Translations under genes and position numbers: made by a program
Notes under the pieces: generated by a model
Databases searched by the model: none
What the model saw: the letters and a program-made list of their open reading frames with translations, nothing else
What the model was told of the DNA's origin: nothing
Assembly: GCA_945865315.1 (NCBI GenBank)
Contig: CAMBDK010000018.1
Coordinates: forward strand, 1 to 36,549
Length of the DNA: 36,549 bases
Direction: 5' to 3'
DNA from: Chitinophaga pinensis
GTDB lineage: Bacteria > Bacteroidota > Bacteroidia > 2-12-FULL-35-15
Shown here: piece by piece, positions 1-36,549 of the stretch
How positions within the stretch are numbered: the stretch's first letter is position 1
Layout: each line of letters opens with the position of its first letter

Positions 1-569
1 TTTGTTCCATCAATCCCTGCAGCACCTGTTGCGCCGATAGCGCCATTACTGCCATCTGTTCCATTGGTTCCGGTGGCTCCTGTGCTACCATTTGTGCCAT
101 TAATACCATTTGTTCCATCAGCACCTGCTGCACCGGTAGGCCCAACAGCACCCGCTGTTCCGTTAGCGCTATATAAAGCGTAAGGCACAGAAATTAATTG
201 GTTGGTTCCAGCAATGGTATAATTTGTGCCACCTGTTGGATCTGTTTCTGTTTTTATAAAATAAGGACCTGCTGCCCAGTTAATCCCTGCAAAGGTGCCT
301 GTTACAGGAGTACCAGCGCCAATTTCTAAACTAGCCAAACCATTGGAGTTGGTGCTTGTTGTGTGTGTTTCTACAAAAACAGGGGTGCCGGAGGAGGAGC
401 CTTGCAAAATACTTATTTTAATACCTACTGCCGTAGATACTACAAGTGCATTGCTACTATTGCGTATTACAGCCTGGTAACTCATCTTTTGCGGCGCTTG
501 TGCAAAGGAGTTGAAAGTTAAAAGTTGAAAGCCGAAAGTTAAAACTAAAATGATAATTAAATTTTTCAT
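1..569 (-). CDS. Secreted collagen-like (Gly-X-Y) surface protein, 3' part outside window
   Basis: The reading frame opens at an ATG (567-569) and stays open to the left edge, giving about 189 visible residues. Residues 1-24 form a signal peptide (MKNLIIILVLTFGF, ending in SFA before QAPQ). Next comes a roughly 120-residue domain that begins MSYQAVIRNSSNAL and ends LISVPYALYS, an N-terminal module I recognise from many Bacteroidota surface proteins. From about residue 132 the sequence becomes Gly-X-Y triplets rich in Thr, Asn and Ala (for example GPTGAAGADGTNG), as in bacterial collagen-like stalks. The role is inferred: an exported fibrous or adhesive protein. Its C-terminus, including any sorting domain, lies outside the window. 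Oddly, the hydrophobic part of the signal peptide is encoded by a low-complexity AACTTTTAACTTTCAACT-type repeat. No close operon partner is visible. Confidence 0.85.
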   Translation of the reverse strand, partial: MKNLIIILVLTFGFQLLTFNSFAQAPQKMSYQAVIRNSSNALVVSTAVGIKISILQGSSSGTPVFVETHTTSTNSNGLASLEIGAGTPVTGTFAGINWAAGPYFIKTETDPTGGTNYTIAGTNQLISVPYALYSANGTAGAVGPTGAAGADGTNGINGTNGSTGATGTNGTDGSNGAIGATGAAGIDGT

Positions 570-1070: not shown

Positions 1071-2153
1071 ATGGATAAGACTTTTAATTGCAAGAAACTA
1101 CTTTTTTTTTCCTGTTTACTTTTTTTTGCAAATAGTATTTTTGCCCAATATATTGTAGAAGCGGGAATTAATCAAACAATTTGTCCGGGCGCTACAATAA
1201 ATATTGGAGGCACCCCCACCGCTGCTGGAGGCAAGCCTCCTTATAAATTTGGCTGGTCTTCCTCAGATGGTGTTTTTATTGATTCCGTTTCTAACCCTTC
1301 GGTTTCTCCTACCGACTTTACCAGCTATTATTTAAGTATAGTAGATGATACAGGAGCCTTTATGGGCACCGATGTTGTAAATATCACCGTATCCTATATT
1401 TTATATATTAATGCAGGAGAGGAGAAAGATTATTGCTTGGGGGGGTCTTCTATAATTGGGGGCCCGAATAATGCCACAGGCATAGGAATAAGTTATTATT
1501 GGACACCTTCCATTGGATTAAATGATACGACATCCCCCAGGCCAACCGCATCCCCATTAATAACAACCGAATATACCTTAACAGCAACAATTGCTGGTTG
1601 TCCACCTAAAATAGATTCTGTAATAATTACGGTAATTCAACCACCACCAATTAATGCTGGAAATGATATTACAATAAAAGAAGGGGAAACTACCATATTA
1701 CATGCATCGGGAGGTTTTTTTTATGAATGGTCGCCCAACTATCTACTTTTGTATAACGATACTGACAATCCTGATGCAGAGCCTGTAGTTACTACCTCTT
1801 ACTACCTTTATGGCTTTGACGAAGCCAAAAGATGTGATGCACGCGACACTGTTACAGTATTTGTAACGCCATCTGATGATATTGTAATTTATAATACATT
1901 CACACCTAATGCGGATGGCAATAATGATACTTGGTACATAGGCAATATTCAAAAGTATCCAAATAACAGCTTAGAAATTTTTAATCGTAATGGTAAATTA
2001 GTTTATAAAATGAATGGGTACGCCAATAGCTGGGATGGTGAAAGTTATATTGGAGGCGACTTACCAGAAACTACTTATTTTTATGTGCTTGATTTGAAAA
2101 ATGGCAAAGACCAATTTCATGGTACTATTACAATAGTAAATAATAATAATTAG
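1071..2153 (+). CDS. T9SS type B sorting-domain surface protein with three PKD/SprB-like repeats
   Basis: The 360-residue protein has a signal peptide (residues 1-25, ending NSIFA before Q). Three Ig/PKD-like repeats follow (about 28-108, 112-188 and 193-266), two of them starting INAGE or INAGN. They carry the cysteine-containing, Tyr/Thr-rich pattern of SprB-type repeats. Residues 271-356 are a gliding-motility-associated C-terminal domain (CHU_C type, T9SS type B signal): it begins IYNTFTPNADGNNDTW, continues with LEIFNRNGKLVY and NSWDG, and ends FHGTITI. The protein should therefore cross the outer membrane by T9SS. The following gene encodes a PorP/SprF protein, the usual partner of such cargo. 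The last residues are a run of Asn from AAT repeats. The TAG stop (2151-2153) is formed by the end of the inverted-repeat element starting at 2150, so the original C-terminus may have differed slightly. Confidence 0.9.
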   Translation: MDKTFNCKKLLFFSCLLFFANSIFAQYIVEAGINQTICPGATINIGGTPTAAGGKPPYKFGWSSSDGVFIDSVSNPSVSPTDFTSYYLSIVDDTGAFMGTDVVNITVSYILYINAGEEKDYCLGGSSIIGGPNNATGIGISYYWTPSIGLNDTTSPRPTASPLITTEYTLTATIAGCPPKIDSVIITVIQPPPINAGNDITIKEGETTILHASGGFFYEWSPNYLLLYNDTDNPDAEPVVTTSYYLYGFDEAKRCDARDTVTVFVTPSDDIVIYNTFTPNADGNNDTWYIGNIQKYPNNSLEIFNRNGKLVYKMNGYANSWDGESYIGGDLPETTYFYVLDLKNGKDQFHGTITIVNNNN

Positions 2154-2298
2154 AGTCTGTCAATAATGTCCGATTTTTTCGTTATTCTTGTTTTTAAAAC
2201 CAGTCATTTACCAATGTAAACAACTGATTTTAAAAACTACGAAAGCCTCGAACTCGAACATTATAGTTCAGACACTCTACTCTATGGAGAGACAATAA
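2150..2298. repeat. Inverted-repeat (MITE-like) element, copy A, 149 bp
   Basis: The left end is TTAGAGTCTGTC; the right end (GGAGAGACAATAA) is a degenerate form of GGACAGACACTAA. The core holds a long imperfect hairpin: TTTTTAAAACCAGT pairs with ACTGATTTTAAAAA, and an ATAATGTCCGA segment near the left pairs imperfectly with TCGAACATTAT near the right. It has the same length as copy D at 21264-21412 and differs from it at about 14 positions in my hand alignment. It has no ORF. It sits between the T9SS cargo gene and the PorP/SprF gene and supplies the stop codon of the former. Confidence 0.85.
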
Positions 2299-2332
2299 TT
2301 AAGAGGTCATTAATATAAAACAAGATTCTAAT

Positions 2333-3307
2333 TTGAAAAACAGAAATTACATATTTTTAATCCTTCAAATAAGTTGCTGTTTATTTTTCGATAAACTGAA
2401 AGCGCAGCAGCTGCCTTATTATACTCAATTTAAAAACAGCTCATTTATGCTTAACCCTGCTGTTGCTGGAACACAAGGCGCTTTATATACTACAATTAAT
2501 TACAGAATGCAATGGGTAGGATTTGAAGGAGCTCCCAAAACATCCGGAATTAATTTGAATGGCAGGTTGTTTAATGGTAAAATGGGAGCTGGCATATATT
2601 TGATGCAAGATGAAGTGGGACCATCGAAACAAATAAACTACGGTGGAACCTATGCATTTCACATTCATTTCCCTGATGTAGAACTATCCCTAGGAATGGC
2701 AGGAAATCTCGCTAAATATACAATAAATGGGAACAAAACTTTAATACATAATTCCCAAGACCCATCTATAGATCAGAAAGCTAGTGATGTAACTTATATA
2801 CCAGATGCAAATGCTGGAATTTATTTATATAATGATAGATTTCATATTGGAATTAGCGCATTGCATTTAATGGAATCGGAAGCTAAATTATATAAACTTA
2901 ATGCTACAAAAAACGGTATTTATAAATATGCCACACAAGTATATTTAACTTTCGGCTATAACTATTCGCAAAATCCGAATTTTGTATTTGAAAATACACT
3001 TTTTGTAAATTATGTGAAGGCTGTTCCCTTAATGTTAGATTATACATTAAGAGTTCATTTCAAAGGGAAATTATTTACAGGCGCTTCTATACGTTTACGC
3101 GATGCAATAGCAATTCATATTGGAACAAATATTATGGAACATTTCCAAATAGCCTATTCTTATGATTTTTTGTTAAGCAAATTAAGGAGTAACAGCAGCG
3201 GATCACATGAAATAGTTTTAAAATATATCATTCCAAAATTTAAAGAGGATAAAAACAATCTTAAAAAAACTAAATTTGTCCATCAAAAATATACTAATTT
3301 ATTTTAG
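2333..3307 (+). CDS. PorP/SprF family type IX secretion membrane protein
   Basis: The 324-residue protein begins at a TTG codon (2333) directly before a good signal peptide (KNRNYIFLILQ, cleavage after KLKA before QQ). No ATG lies between this point and the mature part, so TTG is the likely start. The mature N-terminus (LPYYTQFKNSSFMLNPAVAG) and the following GLNLNGRL-like, GAGIYLMQDEVGP and YAFHI segments are the PorP/SprF signature. The rest is an outer-membrane barrel of alternating strands. SprF-type proteins assist secretion or attachment of a partner T9SS type B cargo. The cargo encoded immediately upstream fits, with 179 bases between the genes, most of them copy A of the repeat element. 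The basic tail after KYIIPKF is short and ordinary. Confidence 0.88.
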   Translation: MKNRNYIFLILQISCCLFFDKLKAQQLPYYTQFKNSSFMLNPAVAGTQGALYTTINYRMQWVGFEGAPKTSGINLNGRLFNGKMGAGIYLMQDEVGPSKQINYGGTYAFHIHFPDVELSLGMAGNLAKYTINGNKTLIHNSQDPSIDQKASDVTYIPDANAGIYLYNDRFHIGISALHLMESEAKLYKLNATKNGIYKYATQVYLTFGYNYSQNPNFVFENTLFVNYVKAVPLMLDYTLRVHFKGKLFTGASIRLRDAIAIHIGTNIMEHFQIAYSYDFLLSKLRSNSSGSHEIVLKYIIPKFKEDKNNLKKTKFVHQKYTNLF

Positions 3308-28373: not shown

Positions 28374-31300
28374 ATGAAGTCTTTATCGGTAGGCTCTTTA
28401 TTTCTTCTGTGTTTTTTGCAAACTCAATTTGGTTTTGCACAAAATATAGGTATTAATGTATCAGGATTATCTCCTAATACCGCTGCTATTTTGGATATTG
28501 ATGCAGCCCCTAATTTTAATAAAGGTTTGTTAATTCCCAGAGTAACATTTTCGCAACGTACTACGGGCTTTAATCCTCTATCCGCTGCAGCACAAGGGCT
28601 TACTGTTTACCAAACCGATGCCGGAGGCTTTGGTGAAGGGTTTTATTTTAATACTAGTACCAGCACCACTCCCGTCTGGTCGTTTTTATTAAATAGTAAC
28701 AGCGGCTGGTCTCTTACAGGCAATGCAGCCACAACTCCTTCCAGCTCCGCTATAGGCACAGCCATTGCTGCCGGTCAAAATTATGTTGGCACAAGCGATT
28801 TAAAAGATTTTGTTTTAGCTACCAATAATTTGGAGAGGTTGAGAATCACTGCTAATGGTAATGTAGGAATTGGTATCAGCGCACCAGCCTTCACGCTCGA
28901 TGTAAATGGCGGTGCCAGAGCATTATTATACACTTTCCCTGCCCCTACCGGCGACCCAGCTCCTGTTATTACAGCGCGCACTGTACCTTCGGGACAAGGT
29001 GCCTCTGCGGAAAAAACAGAACTTATCCTCTTCCATAGCAATGATCCAGCCAATGCCGCAGGAGCCGATCAAATTACATTGCGTGCCCCAGCTTTAAGTT
29101 TTCAAACATTTAATGATGTTAATGTGCTTGATATGAATAATAATGTGGGGTATAATGAAAGGATGTATATTAATTCTATTGGTAATGTTGGGATAGGGAC
29201 AATAGCACCACAAACCCTCTTGCATTTGACAAGGCCAGCAGGAGGAAATGGGAATTTAATATTTGAAGGTAACAGTTCGGTAACAGGGGCACCCAAAATC
29301 TATTTTATAGACATAACAGGAGCAGCAATAACAACCGCTCCTTCCTGGATGATTTCAAATACTAGCGACAAAATGTCTATTTCCAGGGCCTTAACATTGG
29401 GAGGCACTTATGCTGATTTTATGAACATAAGTAATACAGGCAATATAGGAATTGGTACAAACACACCCTCTACCCAGCTGCATTCCACCGGTGGCGTGCG
29501 TTTTCAAATTCTAGCTGGTACAGGCACCCGTATAGTTGTGACGGATGCCAATGGTAATCTTGCAGCCGGTTCTTCAATAGCTTCAGGAATAGTAACAGGG
29601 AGCGGTATTTTAAATTATGTTCCTAAATGGACACCCGATGGAGCAACACTTGGTAATAGTTTAATCTTTGATAATGGTACCAATGTAGGGATAGGGACTG
29701 CAGGCCCAGGGAATAAATTTGGAATAACTATTTCATCAAATGATGCAATACCTTCGCTTGGAAGCAATGGTGGTAGTTTTGGTATTTTCAAAACGGATGG
29801 TGCCACACCAGGAAATTACGGATTTATTATGGGAGTACAAGGCTCAGGTAATGTGTTTCAGCAAGTTCAACGCATAGATGGATCGGTAACTGCATATAAT
29901 TTACTTCTGCAGCCATCAGGTGGCAATGTGGGAATTGGTACTTCAAGCCCAGGGGCTAAGTTACATGCCTATATGATTCCTTCTACATTTAGCACCATTG
30001 ATGATGTACTAAGATTAACAAGTAAGTTTGAAAGTACTGGAAATGCTGCATCCGCTGCTATTGGTAATGGACCGGCCATTGTATTTAGTGGGGGCATTGG
30101 TGATAACCAAACCCGGGATAGGGCAAGAATTGTTGCGGTATATGAAGGGAGTAACGTGTCGGGTTTAGCATTCCATACACAAAATACCGCTGATATTATT
30201 ACCGAGAAAATGAGAATTCAAAATAACGGCAATGTAGGTATTGGGACAACAGCACCCAGTACAAAATTCGAAATCTGGGCTGACTTTGGTGGATCGAACA
30301 AAGTTAGCTATACGCACCAAGGCGGTGGTGAGTCTAAATGGTGGGATGGTGCAGGTGTCATGAGAACTAGAATAGACGCTACCGACCCTTATCAACTCGA
30401 TATGTTCAATTCTATAGGAACAAGGGTCATTGGATTTACAACTGACGGTGGCAACACTTTTATTAATAGTGGCAACGTTGGCATTGGTACTTCAAGCCCA
30501 GGGGCGAAGTTACACGCCTATATGATTCCTTCTACGTTTAGCACTGTTGATGATGTACTAAGATTAACAAGTAAGTTTGAAAGTACTGGAAATGCTGCAT
30601 CCGCTGCAATTGGTAATGGACCGGCCATCGTATTTAGTGGGGGCATTGGTGACAATCAAACCCGGGATAGGGCCAGAATTGTTGCTGTATATGAAGGGAG
30701 TAACGTGTCAGGTCTAGCATTCCATACACAAAATACCGCTGATATTATTACCGAGAAAATGAGAATTCAAAATAACGGCAATGTAGGTATTGGTACTGTA
30801 AATCCTGCTGCACCCTTGGAAGTTCAAAAATCTGGAGGAAGCACATCGTCTGTTAATGTTGCATTAATTTTAGATTATGAGTCAAGTACCACAGCCCTTG
30901 CTGAAGCAGGAACAGCTATTCTTTTTCGTGGAAAATCATCAGGAGGGAATATAGCAAATTATAATCATGCACAAATTAGAAGTATCTCTCAAAACACAAA
31001 TAACGCTCATGGATTGGCATTTGATTATAAACCAAATGCTGGAGCAGCTTTAACTGAAGCAATGCGAATTGGTACATCTGGTAATATAGGCATAGGTGCT
31101 ACAGCACCTACCACGCAACTTCATACTACCGGCGGAGTTCGTTTCCAAACCCTTACCGGTACAGGTAATCGTTTTGTAATTACTGATTTAGATGGTAATA
31201 TATCTGCCGGCGCTGCTACCACTGCCGGAATAATAACAGGAAGCGGTACTTTAAATTATGTTCCTAAATGGACACCAAATGGCACTACACTTGCTAATAG

Positions 31301-34300
31301 CAACATTTTTGATAATGGAACTAATGTAGGTATTGGAACTTCAACTTTCGGTGCAAACGGCTACTTACAAGTTGCAGGGGATATTGGTCTTTCAGGTGTT
31401 AGAACAATCCGTCCTGCTTCAAATTCAGACTCTGAATCATTAAAATATTTAGGAACACAACTTGTTATTGGAGGAGTCAATTCTGCGGCATATGGCTATG
31501 CCAATGGCGGATTGATCGCCATTAAATCTAATGCTGATGGCGCTATACTTTTTGATGCAGGTAGGGTATCAGGATCCGCAGCTCTTCTTGTAAGTAATAC
31601 AACTGCCTCAGAGATTAACCTCAATTTAAGAAATAATGCAGGGGCTTCTGTTTTATTTTCTTCTACTAATACTGGTAATTTAGGCATTGGAACAACAGCT
31701 CCTGGGGCGAAGGTAGATATCAGAGGCAATGATTTCTATCTTGGGCCATATGCAAATACTCCTGCTGCATTTGTAATATATGAGGCCGAAGACTTAAATA
31801 GAACAGGCGGCGCAACGAATACGGATGCTACAGCAAGCAATGGCAATAATTGGGGGACAAATGCAAACTTCCAATTATACGGGCCTTATAGGAGTTTACC
31901 AATAGGAAATTATAAGTTTGTAGCACGAGTTAAAGTAGCAGATGCAAGTTATACTGGCAATAGCTTTCGCATGACGGTTATCGGCACAGGAGTGAGTTCA
32001 AGAGACAGATACATCAGAGGCGTGGATATGACGGCCAACAATGAATGGAATATGCTCTCAGTTCCATTTAGAGTAACGGCAGTAACGGGTAATACTGTGG
32101 AAGTATATGTACTTGGGGTGAATAGCCAACAGATTTACACTGATTACATTATGATTGTCCCCGATGCAGACTCACAAACAGAGCAGGTTTGGGGTAATTT
32201 CTATACAAGCGGCAACATTGGTATTGGAACTAACAGCCCTGGTGCAAAATTAGAAATAGCAGGTCAAATAAAAATAACAGGTGGTGCTCCCGGTGCCGGT
32301 AAAATATTAACTTCTGATGCTGCTGGTTTAGCTACTTGGAACACCCCTAGTTCTGGGTCAGTAGCTGGTTCTGGAATACTTAATTATGTTCCTAAATGGA
32401 CGCCAGATGGTAATACTTTAGGCAATAGTAGCATTTTTGATAATGGTAATGTAGGTATTGGAACAGTCGCACCAAGTGCAAAATTATCTGTTGCCTCAGC
32501 TGCTTTGGGTGGTGTATATATTGGTAATGGTACTTTTGAAAATAGTGCCGGCTGGAATCAGGTTTTTGATTTGCACGGTGCTTCACATGCAAGGATTACA
32601 GCAAGAACTGGAGCAGTAAGCATGGGTATGTATGCCCATGATGCATGGACTGCAGGAGCTGCTGGTTATTTAGGAACATATACCAATCATCCCATAGCTT
32701 TTATGATTGCTGCCAATCAAAAAATGGTACTCGATGTAAATGGTAATCTTGGTATTGGAACAACGGGGCCTGGGGCGAAGTTAGTGGTGAATCAAGCGAG
32801 TAATAGCCACGAAGTTGCGCATTTTGTGCAGGGCGTACCTACAAGTTACAATGTTGATGTTTGGTTGAAAGGAGGGACAACAGCTGATTGGCTTTTAAGT
32901 AAGCGAACTGTGGATGGTAGCGGTGATTTTTGGTTCTACAATCCTACTTTAGGTTATTCAGTTTTGACGCTAAAACAAACTGGCAATGTAGGTATTGGAA
33001 CAACCGCACCAAGTGCCAAATTATCTGTTGCCCCTGCTGCTTCGGGTGGTGTATATATTGGTAATGGTACTTTTGAAAATAGTGCCGGCTGGAATCAGGT
33101 TTTTGATTTGCACGGTGCATCACATGCAAGGATTACAGCAAGAACTGGAGCAGTAAGCATGGGTATGTATGCCCATGATGCATGGAATTTAGGTACTGCG
33201 GGTTATCTCGGTACCTACACCAACCATCCATTAGCTTTTATTATTAATACAACTCCAAGAATGGTAATAGATGTGGGTGGCAATGTAGGTATCGGAACAA
33301 CAACACCCGCTGCCAGACTTCATCTTTGGAATACAAGTGCTGATAATGAGTTAAGAATGACTGCAGATGGTTCATTCGACCCAATATTTAGAATGACAGG
33401 TGAAGGTGGAAGCACAGGCGAAGGGTTTACGATACAATATGATAATAGTGTGGGGGATACTTATATAAAAAATATTTATAATACTACCAATGCATTTCAT
33501 TTTCAAACAGCAAGCCAGGAAGCGATGACTATTAAAACCAACGGGGACATAGGTATTGGAACAACTAATCCAGTAGGAAAGCTACATATCGCAGGAGCTC
33601 ACGCAAATGGCGTAATAGCAGATGGAAATGATCGCCCAAGTGCGGCTGTAACTGGAGTTTATCCTCAAATGGTAATGATGGCTGGAGGTTCTGGTAACAC
33701 TAACCATGGAGCAACATTAATGTTAGGAAGCTATGATGCAGGTACATCTGGTGCTCAAAAGCATTGGTCGATTGGTTCTTCGGGTGTAAATAGTACTTTT
33801 TTAGATATTGGATATAGTGCTGCTGATATTAATCCCCATTCAGGTATAAGAAATTATAATGGTTCTACTTTTATGACAATTTTAAATAGTGGTAATGTCG
33901 GTATCGGAACAACAACACCCGCTGCCAAACTAGAAGTTAATGGCGATTTTATTAGGACGATTGCCCGTGCTCAAGGGTATAATCAAGCGGATGGCACTGA
34001 TAATGGAGCTATTGCTACCCGTACCCTTACTTTTGTAAAAAAATATGGTGATACCGGTATAAGAGTAACTTATTCCGATGGAAGAAGGGTACTTGCTGCT
34101 AGCACAGGTGGCAGGTGGGAAGTGAAATTTAATGCAGCATCCTGTCCAACACCCGGACCAATTGCCTGGGATATACATTCGGGATCGTCTGGAGACTATC
34201 ACAGAGCTGATGCTACTGTTGGAACTTGTTTCGGACTCCCAGCAGGAACCTATACAATTCAAATATATGTGGGCCCCACACCAGGATATCCCGTATGCGA

Positions 34301-34355
34301 TCTTTATACCGGTTGGATAGGTTTGTGGTCATTAGAAGCAGAAGAAGTAAGGTAA
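28374..34355 (+). CDS. Giant secreted GNVGIGT-repeat protein with CBM-like insert and CTHRC1-like C-terminal domain
   Basis: The 1993-residue protein has a signal peptide (1-22, ending FGFA before QNIG). A common Bacteroidota head follows (AAILDIDAAPNFNKGLLIPR, QRTTGFNPLSAAAQGLTVYQ). From about residue 160 to 1850 I count 18 copies of a G-N-[VIL]-G-I-G motif, most continuing into a short strand such as SPGAKLHA. Three copies of a linker GILNYVPKWTPDG lead into NGTNVGIGT-type motifs. Two long internal duplications are nearly identical in DNA. Residues about 1130-1262 (YEAEDLNRTGG onward) look like a jelly-roll carbohydrate-binding module. Residues about 1860-1993 resemble the C-terminal domain of animal CTHRC1. 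No T9SS sorting domain, peptidase S74 or transmembrane anchor is seen. It is probably a surface or secreted fibrous adhesin; the export route past the outer membrane is unknown. Start: ATG 28374 directly before the signal peptide. Confidence 0.9.
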   Translation: MKSLSVGSLFLLCFLQTQFGFAQNIGINVSGLSPNTAAILDIDAAPNFNKGLLIPRVTFSQRTTGFNPLSAAAQGLTVYQTDAGGFGEGFYFNTSTSTTPVWSFLLNSNSGWSLTGNAATTPSSSAIGTAIAAGQNYVGTSDLKDFVLATNNLERLRITANGNVGIGISAPAFTLDVNGGARALLYTFPAPTGDPAPVITARTVPSGQGASAEKTELILFHSNDPANAAGADQITLRAPALSFQTFNDVNVLDMNNNVGYNERMYINSIGNVGIGTIAPQTLLHLTRPAGGNGNLIFEGNSSVTGAPKIYFIDITGAAITTAPSWMISNTSDKMSISRALTLGGTYADFMNISNTGNIGIGTNTPSTQLHSTGGVRFQILAGTGTRIVVTDANGNLAAGSSIASGIVTGSGILNYVPKWTPDGATLGNSLIFDNGTNVGIGTAGPGNKFGITISSNDAIPSLGSNGGSFGIFKTDGATPGNYGFIMGVQGSGNVFQQVQRIDGSVTAYNLLLQPSGGNVGIGTSSPGAKLHAYMIPSTFSTIDDVLRLTSKFESTGNAASAAIGNGPAIVFSGGIGDNQTRDRARIVAVYEGSNVSGLAFHTQNTADIITEKMRIQNNGNVGIGTTAPSTKFEIWADFGGSNKVSYTHQGGGESKWWDGAGVMRTRIDATDPYQLDMFNSIGTRVIGFTTDGGNTFINSGNVGIGTSSPGAKLHAYMIPSTFSTVDDVLRLTSKFESTGNAASAAIGNGPAIVFSGGIGDNQTRDRARIVAVYEGSNVSGLAFHTQNTADIITEKMRIQNNGNVGIGTVNPAAPLEVQKSGGSTSSVNVALILDYESSTTALAEAGTAILFRGKSSGGNIANYNHAQIRSISQNTNNAHGLAFDYKPNAGAALTEAMRIGTSGNIGIGATAPTTQLHTTGGVRFQTLTGTGNRFVITDLDGNISAGAATTAGIITGSGTLNYVPKWTPNGTTLANSNIFDNGTNVGIGTSTFGANGYLQVAGDIGLSGVRTIRPASNSDSESLKYLGTQLVIGGVNSAAYGYANGGLIAIKSNADGAILFDAGRVSGSAALLVSNTTASEINLNLRNNAGASVLFSSTNTGNLGIGTTAPGAKVDIRGNDFYLGPYANTPAAFVIYEAEDLNRTGGATNTDATASNGNNWGTNANFQLYGPYRSLPIGNYKFVARVKVADASYTGNSFRMTVIGTGVSSRDRYIRGVDMTANNEWNMLSVPFRVTAVTGNTVEVYVLGVNSQQIYTDYIMIVPDADSQTEQVWGNFYTSGNIGIGTNSPGAKLEIAGQIKITGGAPGAGKILTSDAAGLATWNTPSSGSVAGSGILNYVPKWTPDGNTLGNSSIFDNGNVGIGTVAPSAKLSVASAALGGVYIGNGTFENSAGWNQVFDLHGASHARITARTGAVSMGMYAHDAWTAGAAGYLGTYTNHPIAFMIAANQKMVLDVNGNLGIGTTGPGAKLVVNQASNSHEVAHFVQGVPTSYNVDVWLKGGTTADWLLSKRTVDGSGDFWFYNPTLGYSVLTLKQTGNVGIGTTAPSAKLSVAPAASGGVYIGNGTFENSAGWNQVFDLHGASHARITARTGAVSMGMYAHDAWNLGTAGYLGTYTNHPLAFIINTTPRMVIDVGGNVGIGTTTPAARLHLWNTSADNELRMTADGSFDPIFRMTGEGGSTGEGFTIQYDNSVGDTYIKNIYNTTNAFHFQTASQEAMTIKTNGDIGIGTTNPVGKLHIAGAHANGVIADGNDRPSAAVTGVYPQMVMMAGGSGNTNHGATLMLGSYDAGTSGAQKHWSIGSSGVNSTFLDIGYSAADINPHSGIRNYNGSTFMTILNSGNVGIGTTTPAAKLEVNGDFIRTIARAQGYNQADGTDNGAIATRTLTFVKKYGDTGIRVTYSDGRRVLAASTGGRWEVKFNAASCPTPGPIAWDIHSGSSGDYHRADATVGTCFGLPAGTYTIQIYVGPTPGYPVCDLYTGWIGLWSLEAEEVR
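29922..30244 (+). repeat. Intragenic duplication 1, first copy (323 bp)
   Basis: This is nearly identical to 30471-30793 at an offset of 549 bases. It runs from one GNVGIGT motif to the next and encodes a SSPGAKLHAYMIPSTF-type unit. Differences are scattered, mostly synonymous single bases. Confidence 0.9.
30471..30793 (+). repeat. Intragenic duplication 1, second copy (323 bp)
   Basis: This is the second copy of 29922-30244, in the same reading frame. The encoded units differ by one residue in the part I compared (STIDD against STVDD). Confidence 0.9.
32448..32649 (+). repeat. Intragenic duplication 2, first copy (202 bp)
   Basis: This is nearly identical to 32985-33186 at an offset of 537 bases, starting at a GNVGIGT motif and ending at AHDAW. 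The encoded units then diverge but stay alike in protein (GYLGTYTNHP in both). Confidence 0.9.
32985..33186 (+). repeat. Intragenic duplication 2, second copy (202 bp)
   Basis: This is the second copy of 32448-32649, in frame. It encodes PSAKLSVAPAASGGVYIGN where the first copy has PSAKLSVASAALGGVYIGN. Confidence 0.9.
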
Positions 34356-34471
34356 TTGCTGTGGCAACGACCACTTCATAAAAGCTTGAGGTATTCAGTA
34401 GCTAAGGCAGAAGCACTGTAAAGTATTACTACCGGTAATGTCCGCTTTTCGTATAAGCGCAACAAAAAAGA

Positions 34472-34677
34472 TACTACTCCATTGCCCAATGCACATACAA
34501 GCATAATGAAATTACATGGGGTAAACTGTTGTTGGAAAACAAAAGAGCTTCCCCGATAAACAATTTAGAGTTAATAATGCAAATGGGCTTTATACCAATT
34601 ATAGTTTCAAGATAGTCCAATCCAAGACCTAAAAAAAAGCAGAAAAGATTTTTAAAAAACAAATATTCCAAATTTAA
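34472..34677 (+). pseudogene. Possible remnant of a T9SS type A sorting domain
   Basis: Read on the plus strand, the frame beginning at 34472 gives YYSIAQCTYKHNEITWGKLL, continuing LENK. The frame beginning at 34540 then gives QKSFPDKQFRVNNANGLYTN, YSFKIVQSKT, a stop, and KKAEKIFKKQIFQ up to 34677. Joined by one frameshift, this has the order of a type A C-terminal domain: a strand with a Gly/Gln turn, then a Lys-Leu-Leu strand, then the NNANGLY...KIV block, then a basic KKQ end. It has a frameshift, an internal stop and no start, so it is not functional. The reading is by eye and is tentative. Confidence 0.35.
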
Positions 34678-34717
34678 AATGAATGCCCACGAAGCAGGGC
34701 TTCGGGGGCATTCATTT
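34677..34717 (-). terminator. Strong hairpin terminator of the right-edge T9SS protein gene
   Basis: AAATGAATGCCC-A-CGAAG pairs with CTTCG-G-GGGCATTCATTT, 18-base arms with one mismatch around a short CAGGG loop. The outermost A/T bases give a T run on both strands. It lies about 40 bases past the stop of the minus-strand gene at 34759 and could also stop readthrough from the GIGT gene. Confidence 0.85.
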
Positions 34718-34758
34718 TATAATCAGCCTTGTTTTATTGGGTAGGGGAAATTTTCAGA

Positions 34759-36549
34759 TTACTTTTGTATTATAATTTTTTCATTTGCAATTAACATTTT
34801 GTCCGAAACAACCTGAACAAAATAAACTCCGGCATTAAGTTCTCCTTTCGGAATAATTAATTGGCTTCCAGAGAAATTAATGTTTTTCACTTCTTTACCC
34901 AAAACATCTATAATCTTTACCGTTGCATTTTTCATTTCTTTAGTAAATGAAATTGTTGTTTGAGAAGAAAATGGGTTCGGGAAAATGGTAAGACCCGAAG
35001 CAATATTTGCTTCTTGAATACCAACCGATTGGTTTACTGCAATAGAATCTGAGAAAGCAGTAAACACTTGAGCAAGCCCTGCTGCGTTATTTGCTACATA
35101 ATCAGAAACAGATAAATGGAATATTGCTTGTGAAGTTAAGGTAGTTTTAATTTGAAATTTGAAATCTGCAATTTTCCCAAACCCACTCACATCAGTGTGG
35201 TCTATGCGGGTTAAGGCTACGTAAGCCTTGTTTGCTGGCGCATCAACTTTTCCAACCTTTAGCGCATTTGTACCCGGTGTTCCAAGCCAACAGGGAGAAT
35301 AGGTAATCATTTCTGTTCCCGTTTGAACAAGAGATGCATCATAATTTATATTAACAGCAATACCGTATAAATTACTTACTGGTGCTAAAGAAGTACCAAG
35401 CCACAATTCTGCGTAAACCCAGTCTCCTGGATTATAATTACTGCCACTAAAAACAAAATACATGTCAGATGCAACTCTCATTTCATTATCATTATGAGGT
35501 GCGGGAACAATTGCGTGTATTAAATTAAAATTCAAATTAATTGCTAATGTATCGTTGGCATCAATTGTACCATCGCCATTACAATCTGCGTGTTTTATAT
35601 CTTGTCCGTTAGGTTGTAATGTTCCCCAATTATTTGAAAAGTTAGCTTGCCAGGTATTGCTTATGCTTGCTCGCGGAGTTCCTGTTTGTGAATAGAATAA
35701 GCCCACTGATAATAAATCATTATTATTTACAAGCGAGTCGTTGTTAGCATCACCCGGCCAAACCGGAATACTTACAGTTATAGTAACTGCTGCACACGAT
35801 GTTGTATTACAAGTGCCTATAGCTCTTACAAAATAGGAAGAAGTTGAAGAAGGACTTACATTAATTGAATTACCAGTTCCTACCAATGTTCCGCCACAAC
35901 TTCCGGTGTACCAATTATAGGCAGCACCGCTACCAAGGAATCCATTAGTTGCAGTTAATGTAGTAGAGTCCCCTAGGAAAATTGAGCTTGGATTAGCCGT
36001 TACAGAAGAAGGGGCAGCAGAATTAATATTTACCGTTACTATTACTAAGGCACTTGAACCACTGCAACCATTAGCAGTGGGAGTAATAGTATATAGAACT
36101 GTTCCATTGGTTGTATCCGTTGCTGTTAATGTTTGGGCAATAATTGAACCCGAACCGGATGTTGCTCCCGTTACATCTGTTTGGACTGCCGTCCATGAAA
36201 ATGAAGTACCGCTCAAATTACTGCTCAAGTTAAAAGAAGTTATATTACCAGAGCAAATAATTTGTGAGCTTGGAGTAATAACAACAACAGGTGATGGATT
36301 TACGACAACTACCACACTGTTAGGAAATGGGTTTGAACAACCATTAACTGTTACGGTATAAAAGTAAGTAACATTTATCGGAGAGTTTGTTGTATTAACG
36401 AGTGTTTCAGCTGGGTCGCCTGTACCACTTCCTGCTAAATTACTGATACCCGATACTGCAGCTCTTGTCCATGAAAATATTGCGCCTACTCCTGCGCTTG
36501 TTGGTGTATAACTAAACTGACTGCCACTGCATATTGGTGGAGGCGTTAA
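34759..36549 (-). CDS. T9SS type A surface protein with PKD/Ig-like, dockerin-like and cohesin-like parts, 5' end outside window
   Basis: The frame is open to the right edge (596 visible residues), so its start lies outside. Residues about 1-170 are PKD/SprB-like repeats (CSGSQFSYTPTSAG, ICSGNITSFNLSSN, then TANGCSGSSALVIV). About 175-258 is an Ig-like domain (SSIFLGDSTTLTATNG). About 263-345 holds two calcium-loop motifs of dockerin type, DANNDSLVNNND and DCNGDGTIDAND, with an insert between them. About 350-508 resembles a cohesin (LYGIAVNINYDASLV, AYVALTRIDHTDVSGFGKIA). Residues 510-596 are a T9SS type A sorting domain (IFPNPFSSQTTISF, VKIIDVLGKEV, LNAGVYFVQVVSDK, EKIIIQK). The protein is expected on the surface or released by T9SS. 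A strong hairpin follows the stop. Confidence 0.88.
   Translation of the reverse strand, partial: LTPPPICSGSQFSYTPTSAGVGAIFSWTRAAVSGISNLAGSGTGDPAETLVNTTNSPINVTYFYTVTVNGCSNPFPNSVVVVVNPSPVVVITPSSQIICSGNITSFNLSSNLSGTSFSWTAVQTDVTGATSGSGSIIAQTLTATDTTNGTVLYTITPTANGCSGSSALVIVTVNINSAAPSSVTANPSSIFLGDSTTLTATNGFLGSGAAYNWYTGSCGGTLVGTGNSINVSPSSTSSYFVRAIGTCNTTSCAAVTITVSIPVWPGDANNDSLVNNNDLLSVGLFYSQTGTPRASISNTWQANFSNNWGTLQPNGQDIKHADCNGDGTIDANDTLAINLNFNLIHAIVPAPHNDNEMRVASDMYFVFSGSNYNPGDWVYAELWLGTSLAPVSNLYGIAVNINYDASLVQTGTEMITYSPCWLGTPGTNALKVGKVDAPANKAYVALTRIDHTDVSGFGKIADFKFQIKTTLTSQAIFHLSVSDYVANNAAGLAQVFTAFSDSIAVNQSVGIQEANIASGLTIFPNPFSSQTTISFTKEMKNATVKIIDVLGKEVKNINFSGSQLIIPKGELNAGVYFVQVVSDKMLIANEKIIIQK

Follow-up and report, generated by a model that had tools for sequence, protein, structure and literature searches.

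The C-terminal domain of CTHRC1 has been reported from several bacterial metagenomes, as well as from choanoflagellates and dinoflagellates (Leclere et al. 2020, PMC7058181). Some of the published bacterial proteins also carry collagen repeats, the pairing with collagen was argued to be independent in bacteria and animals, and the domain was modelled as C1q-like (PMC7058181). Animal CTHRC1 is a matrix protein that has been investigated in connection with fibrosis and cancer, and the PDB sequences searched contained no significant relative of its C-terminal domain. A second group of relevant systems is formed by the mosaic adhesive trimer (MAT) fibres of Bdellovibrio bacteriovorus, which end either in an S74 chaperone, whose role is assembly quality control, or in a substitute tip (PMC10769870). 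In Bd2133 a beta-sandwich stands in place of S74, and the tips of Bd2439 and Bd2734 are TNF-like trimers, that of Bd2439 carrying bound GlcNAc; the main text of the study makes no mention of CTHRC1 (PMC10769870). Since CTHRC1_C domains were already described from bacteria in 2020 (PMC7058181), neither the homology nor the bacterial occurrence described below is new. The new part is the architecture, namely a CTHRC1_C domain on a GIGT-repeat fibre, together with a probable history of tip replacement and a close relative that was not expected, in a bacterium using another genetic code. No paper describing CTHRC1_C on a GIGT fibre was found in the open-access PMC literature.

The window analysed here, that is, the whole stretch of 36,549 nt, contains the following features, of which the fibre gene and the sequence 3′ of it are the main subject:

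3-569, minus strand: collagen-like gene running off the left edge (PF01391, E=1.6e-8)
28374..34355, plus strand: predicted surface fibre gene of 1993 aa, an ORF with a signal peptide, 16 GNVGIGT-type repeats and a CTHRC1_C tip
28374..28442, plus strand: N-terminal signal peptide MKSLSVGSLFLLCFLQTQFGFAQ, recognised by inspection of the sequence
28857..33947, plus strand: GIGT-repeat fibre region from the first to the last unit, delimited by the repeat count and with internal near-duplications
33891..33950, plus strand: final GIGT repeat with its linker GNVGIGTTTPAAKLEVNGDF, of nearly the same sequence in the Gracilibacteria relative
33951..34352, plus strand: CTHRC1 C-terminal domain PF25815 (model match about 33984-34316), from the Pfam profile and the alignment with the human domain
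34458..34590, plus strand: Peptidase_S74 chaperone relic, untranslated (RNKKDTTPLPNAHTSIMKLHGVNCCWKTKELP, a frameshift, then SFPDKQF), from Smith-Waterman comparison
34590..34632, plus strand: interspersed genomic repeat (about 43 bp) that follows the S74 relic, with copies elsewhere in the genome

The sequence-only reading had proposed that residues of about 1860-1993 resemble the C-terminal domain of CTHRC1, and the profile search bore this out. PF25815 (CTHRC1_C) covered residues 1871-1981 with 53.8 bits (E=3.3e-14) when the full protein was searched against Pfam, and the C-terminal 160 aa alone scored 59.6 bits (E=5.4e-16); both values exceed the curated cut-off of 27 bits. Because the match is highly significant (E about 1e-15 where a profile without a match would have spoken against the proposal), the homology to the CTHRC1 C-terminus stands. 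The ORF and the coordinates were likewise correct, with base 33951 as the first of the codon for residue 1860, position 34355 as the end of the ORF, and the two cysteines at residues 1924 and 1952. As a control, a sequence was used that we take to be the human CTHRC1 C-terminal domain. This presumed human domain scored 227 bits on PF25815 and shared 33% identity with the tip along the domain length. The motifs that had been listed from the letters alone were all seen in this alignment (RW-x3-FN-x-A-x-C, P-x-PI, HR, G-x-C, AG, VG, YP, D, TGW and EE), and Cys1924 and Cys1952 aligned with cysteines of the presumed human domain; the two may form a disulfide. A third cysteine of the tip, Cys1975, had no counterpart in the presumed human or the Gracilibacteria sequence. 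The tip thus resembles the PF25815 family in its profile, its motifs, its two aligned cysteines and its C-terminal place in a secreted fibrous protein. In animal CTHRC1, however, the domain follows a short collagen stretch, whereas in the window protein it follows a GIGT beta-helix fibre.

The 16 GNVGIGT-type repeats of the 1993-aa protein belong to a known kind of fibre. In a sequence search against the PDB, residues 1343-1859 matched bd2133 (8ond, E=1.5e-6) and, over the same residues, 8ojn (E=5.2e-5). Both entries are taken here to come from the Bdellovibrio MAT study, in which Bd2133 is named and to which 8ojn presumably also belongs. The repeats are therefore homologous to solved trimeric beta-helix MAT fibres, which agrees with the earlier suggestion that the domain caps a fibrous repeat protein. 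The window protein and the MAT fibres have in common a homologous GIGT/beta-helix stalk and a C-terminal S74 or substitute tip, TNF-like tips included. They differ in that the window protein comes from an uncultured member of the Bacteroidota and was not matched by the NCBIfam model Bdello_MAT_N; lacking this N-terminal model, it is termed MAT-like rather than a MAT. Pfam found no type IX secretion tail on the fibre protein, no S74 match inside the ORF and no collagen triple-helix repeat, which places the protein outside the CTHRC1 family in the strict sense. The earlier reading had also pointed to a link with collagen. The left-edge gene is indeed collagen-like. It is, however, a gene of its own that lies over 27 kb from the fibre gene, and the link is weaker than had been implied because of this distance and because the fibre protein itself has no collagen stretch. 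Judged from its sequence, the 1993-aa protein is probably an exported beta-helix fibre that would form trimers. Near-identical internal duplications were observed in the fibre at about 29922-30800 and about 32445-33300, with units at residues 517/700 and 1358/1537, and suggest that the fibre has grown by the duplication of units. A GIGT repeat ending in KLEVNGD is also widespread in viral contigs (loci L022-L065), without the CTHRC1 domain.

The fold of the tip was approached by structure prediction. Two AlphaFold2 runs with two sequences as input gave poor models with pLDDT of 50 and 42, the second run, on the domain alone, being worse than the first. When the poor first model was compared by VIA-align, many TNF/C1q-like trimers were found among the best rows with Z of 5-6.5 (the Pgp3 C-terminal domain, 4-1BBL, the BC2L-C lectin, BclA and C1q), mixed with unrelated beta-sandwiches, and all Z-scores from this model were below 8 and at most 6.5. 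Foldseek with the poor tip models returned no significant match, with nothing at E below 0.0096, and the tip sequence matched no solved structure in the PDB. Collagen-like proteins that end in a C1q/TNF-like tip, BclA among them, resemble the window protein in having a fibrous stalk and a proposed jelly-roll trimer tip, with a weak structure alignment (Z about 5, from a poor model). They differ in their collagen stalk, and no sequence similarity to the window tip was found; a C1q/TNF-like fold may be proposed for this tip. Since the scaffold below it has already been crystallised, a bacterial CTHRC1_C domain on such a fibre offers a tractable route to the fold and the ligand of the domain.

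Downstream of the gene, the remains of a different tip were detected. The relic starts 102 bp 3′ of the CTHRC1_C stop codon; RNKKDTTPLPNAHTSIMKLHGVNCCWKTKELP is read in the plus-strand frame 34458-34553, and a frameshift leads to SFPDKQF. Against the intact S74 domain of another gene of the same genome, which Pfam verified as PF13884, the relic gave a Smith-Waterman local score of 65, as compared with 42 for the best of 500 dinucleotide shuffles and 42 for the best of 85 window tiles. The short relic by itself was not recognised by Pfam, and the case for it is made by the pairwise comparison and the shuffle control. Given this broken S74 just 3′ of the stop codon, CTHRC1_C has probably displaced S74, and the simplest history is that an S74-ended fibre acquired the CTHRC1_C tip and that the former chaperone decayed. 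The locus can thus be compared with S74-ended tail spikes and Bacteroidota fibres (PF13884), which are of the same fibre kind. The same genome holds an intact S74-ended protein in addition to the relic, whereas in the window gene translation no longer includes S74 and the tip is formed by CTHRC1_C. With the S74 relic lying behind the new tip, a probable case of tip replacement is visible in this locus. For the repeat that follows the relic (about 43 bp), six further copies were found in the same genome, with 86-95% identity. A long palindrome at about 34676-34719 (AAAATGAATGCCC...GGGCATTCATTTT) separates the fibre gene from the PKD/Ig gene, which is convergent with it, and is probably a bidirectional terminator.

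The domain occurs in one copy in its own genome. It was not found in 35 other genomes of the same genus, in 394 sampled genomes of the phylum or in 394 sampled genomes of the class, and its absence from these sampled relatives makes the distribution patchy and horizontal movement probable. In none of the other genus genomes examined was a GIGT ORF found beside UvrA, so that no orthologous tipless locus is at hand for comparison. The domain was never found in viral contigs, which had GIGT repeats only, and it was absent from phage and plasmid records. When 84,980 named species genomes were scanned with a strict motif, one true relative was recovered, in a Candidatus Gracilibacteria MAG (JAQTLR010000003.1); this number is a lower bound because the scan was strict. 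Ten of the 11 pattern matches in named genomes were not relatives. Among the genomes sampled from the phylum and the class of the Gracilibacterium, no other PF25815 member exceeded the cut-off. Another genome of its class (G959) gave 22 bits, below the cut-off and with internal stops, and looks like noise. Weak protein matches were also obtained in six other genomes of the phylum and on a Leisingera plasmid; those checked were chance matches as judged by their reading frames, and the plasmid match was a glycosyltransferase by Pfam.

Under code 25, in which TGA is read as Gly, the Gracilibacteria protein is about 310 aa long and begins with a hydrophobic segment, which is followed by two GIGT repeats and a CTHRC1_C tip; it matches bd2133 independently (8ond, E=7.7e-7). 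Its tip is 79% identical to the window tip, or 81% when the last repeat and the linker are included, and its sole TGA codon sits at a Gly of the window protein. The codons of the two tips gave dN of 0.14 and dS of about 2, the latter saturated, and the tip is under purifying selection in both lineages. The GC3 of the window tip (0.276) fits that of the host genes (0.22-0.27). Purifying selection in both lineages, codon adaptation in the window genome and the distance between the phyla are together best explained by a horizontal transfer that is not recent. The putative adhesin tip is thus clearly common to phyla with different genetic codes.

The reading that we favour, and to which we give a good but not overwhelming probability, is that of a trimeric fibre in which S74 was displaced by a recombined CTHRC1_C tip that both trimerises and binds a ligand. 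An exported trimeric beta-helix fibre would originally have ended in an S74 intramolecular chaperone, and recombination, probably at one of the GIGT repeats, would have brought in CTHRC1_C and displaced S74. The NC1/C1q-like domains of short-chain collagens and the S74 domains of fibres set the trimer register and start folding from the C-terminus. By analogy with these, CTHRC1_C at the distal end most likely sets the register and starts folding from the C-terminus, and the tip would also present a putative ligand-binding, probably glycan-binding, surface to the environment. That the tip is a structural cap only, which nucleates the trimer and guards the fibre end with no ligand of its own, is possible and rated well behind. 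C1q-like domains nucleate collagen trimers, as is established for collagens VIII and X, which is in line with a cap. The position of CTHRC1_C also agrees with it, since the domain sits in place of a chaperone whose job is assembly quality control (PMC10769870). However, one Bdellovibrio fibre carries in this position a TNF-like tip that binds a sugar (PMC10769870), and S74 is usually cleaved off, whereas CTHRC1_C would remain as the visible tip.

The fibre part matched PHROG tail-fibre families with 193 bits and GIGT repeats are common in viral contigs, which would speak for a tail fibre of phage or prophage origin and not for a protein of the cell surface. Such an origin is nevertheless unlikely, given the N-terminal signal-like sequence, the absence of CTHRC1_C from the viral contigs and phage records searched, and the checked neighbours, which are housekeeping and surface genes (UvrA and a PKD/Ig protein with a type IX sorting tail) and include no phage genes. 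The likeness to CTHRC1 as a product of convergence or chance is strongly disfavoured by the profile match, which at E of about 1e-15 reaches twice the cut-off, and by the 33% identity to the presumed human domain, the cysteines and motifs shared across the whole domain, and the purifying selection on the tip; in its favour, the fold as an independent line could not be shown, the models being poor and Foldseek giving no significant match. We consider a binning error or eukaryotic contamination equally improbable as the source of the domain. The assembly is in 195 contigs and the 35 same-genus relatives lack the domain, but a single ORF holds both domain and fibre, the GC3 of the tip matches the host genes and so argues against foreign contamination, the UvrA gene beside it shares mostly 79-87% identity with UvrA of the genus relatives, and another bacterium carries a close relative of the domain, written in the genetic code of that bacterium.

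Returning to the favoured reading of a displaced S74, a wider proposal may be added tentatively, about which we remain doubtful. The CTHRC1_C tip could be an exchangeable cassette that was swapped for S74 and moved between Bacteroidota and episymbiont-type Gracilibacteria across the code change, gripping the same type of surface ligand in both, and the animal tip could have descended from, or share ancestry with, a bacterial adhesive tip.

Elsewhere in the window, type IX secretion parts were observed at 1071-3307 and 34759-36549, comprising a CHU_C-tailed protein, PorP/SprF and a PKD/Ig-like protein with a Por secretion tail, and these place the genome in the Bacteroidota. Ahead of its collagen repeats, the left-edge collagen-like gene has an N-terminus that gave a weak match to the Bdellovibrio MAT N-terminal model, with 35 bits (E=9e-9) where the cut-off is 60, and this gene may encode another MAT-like chimeric fibre.
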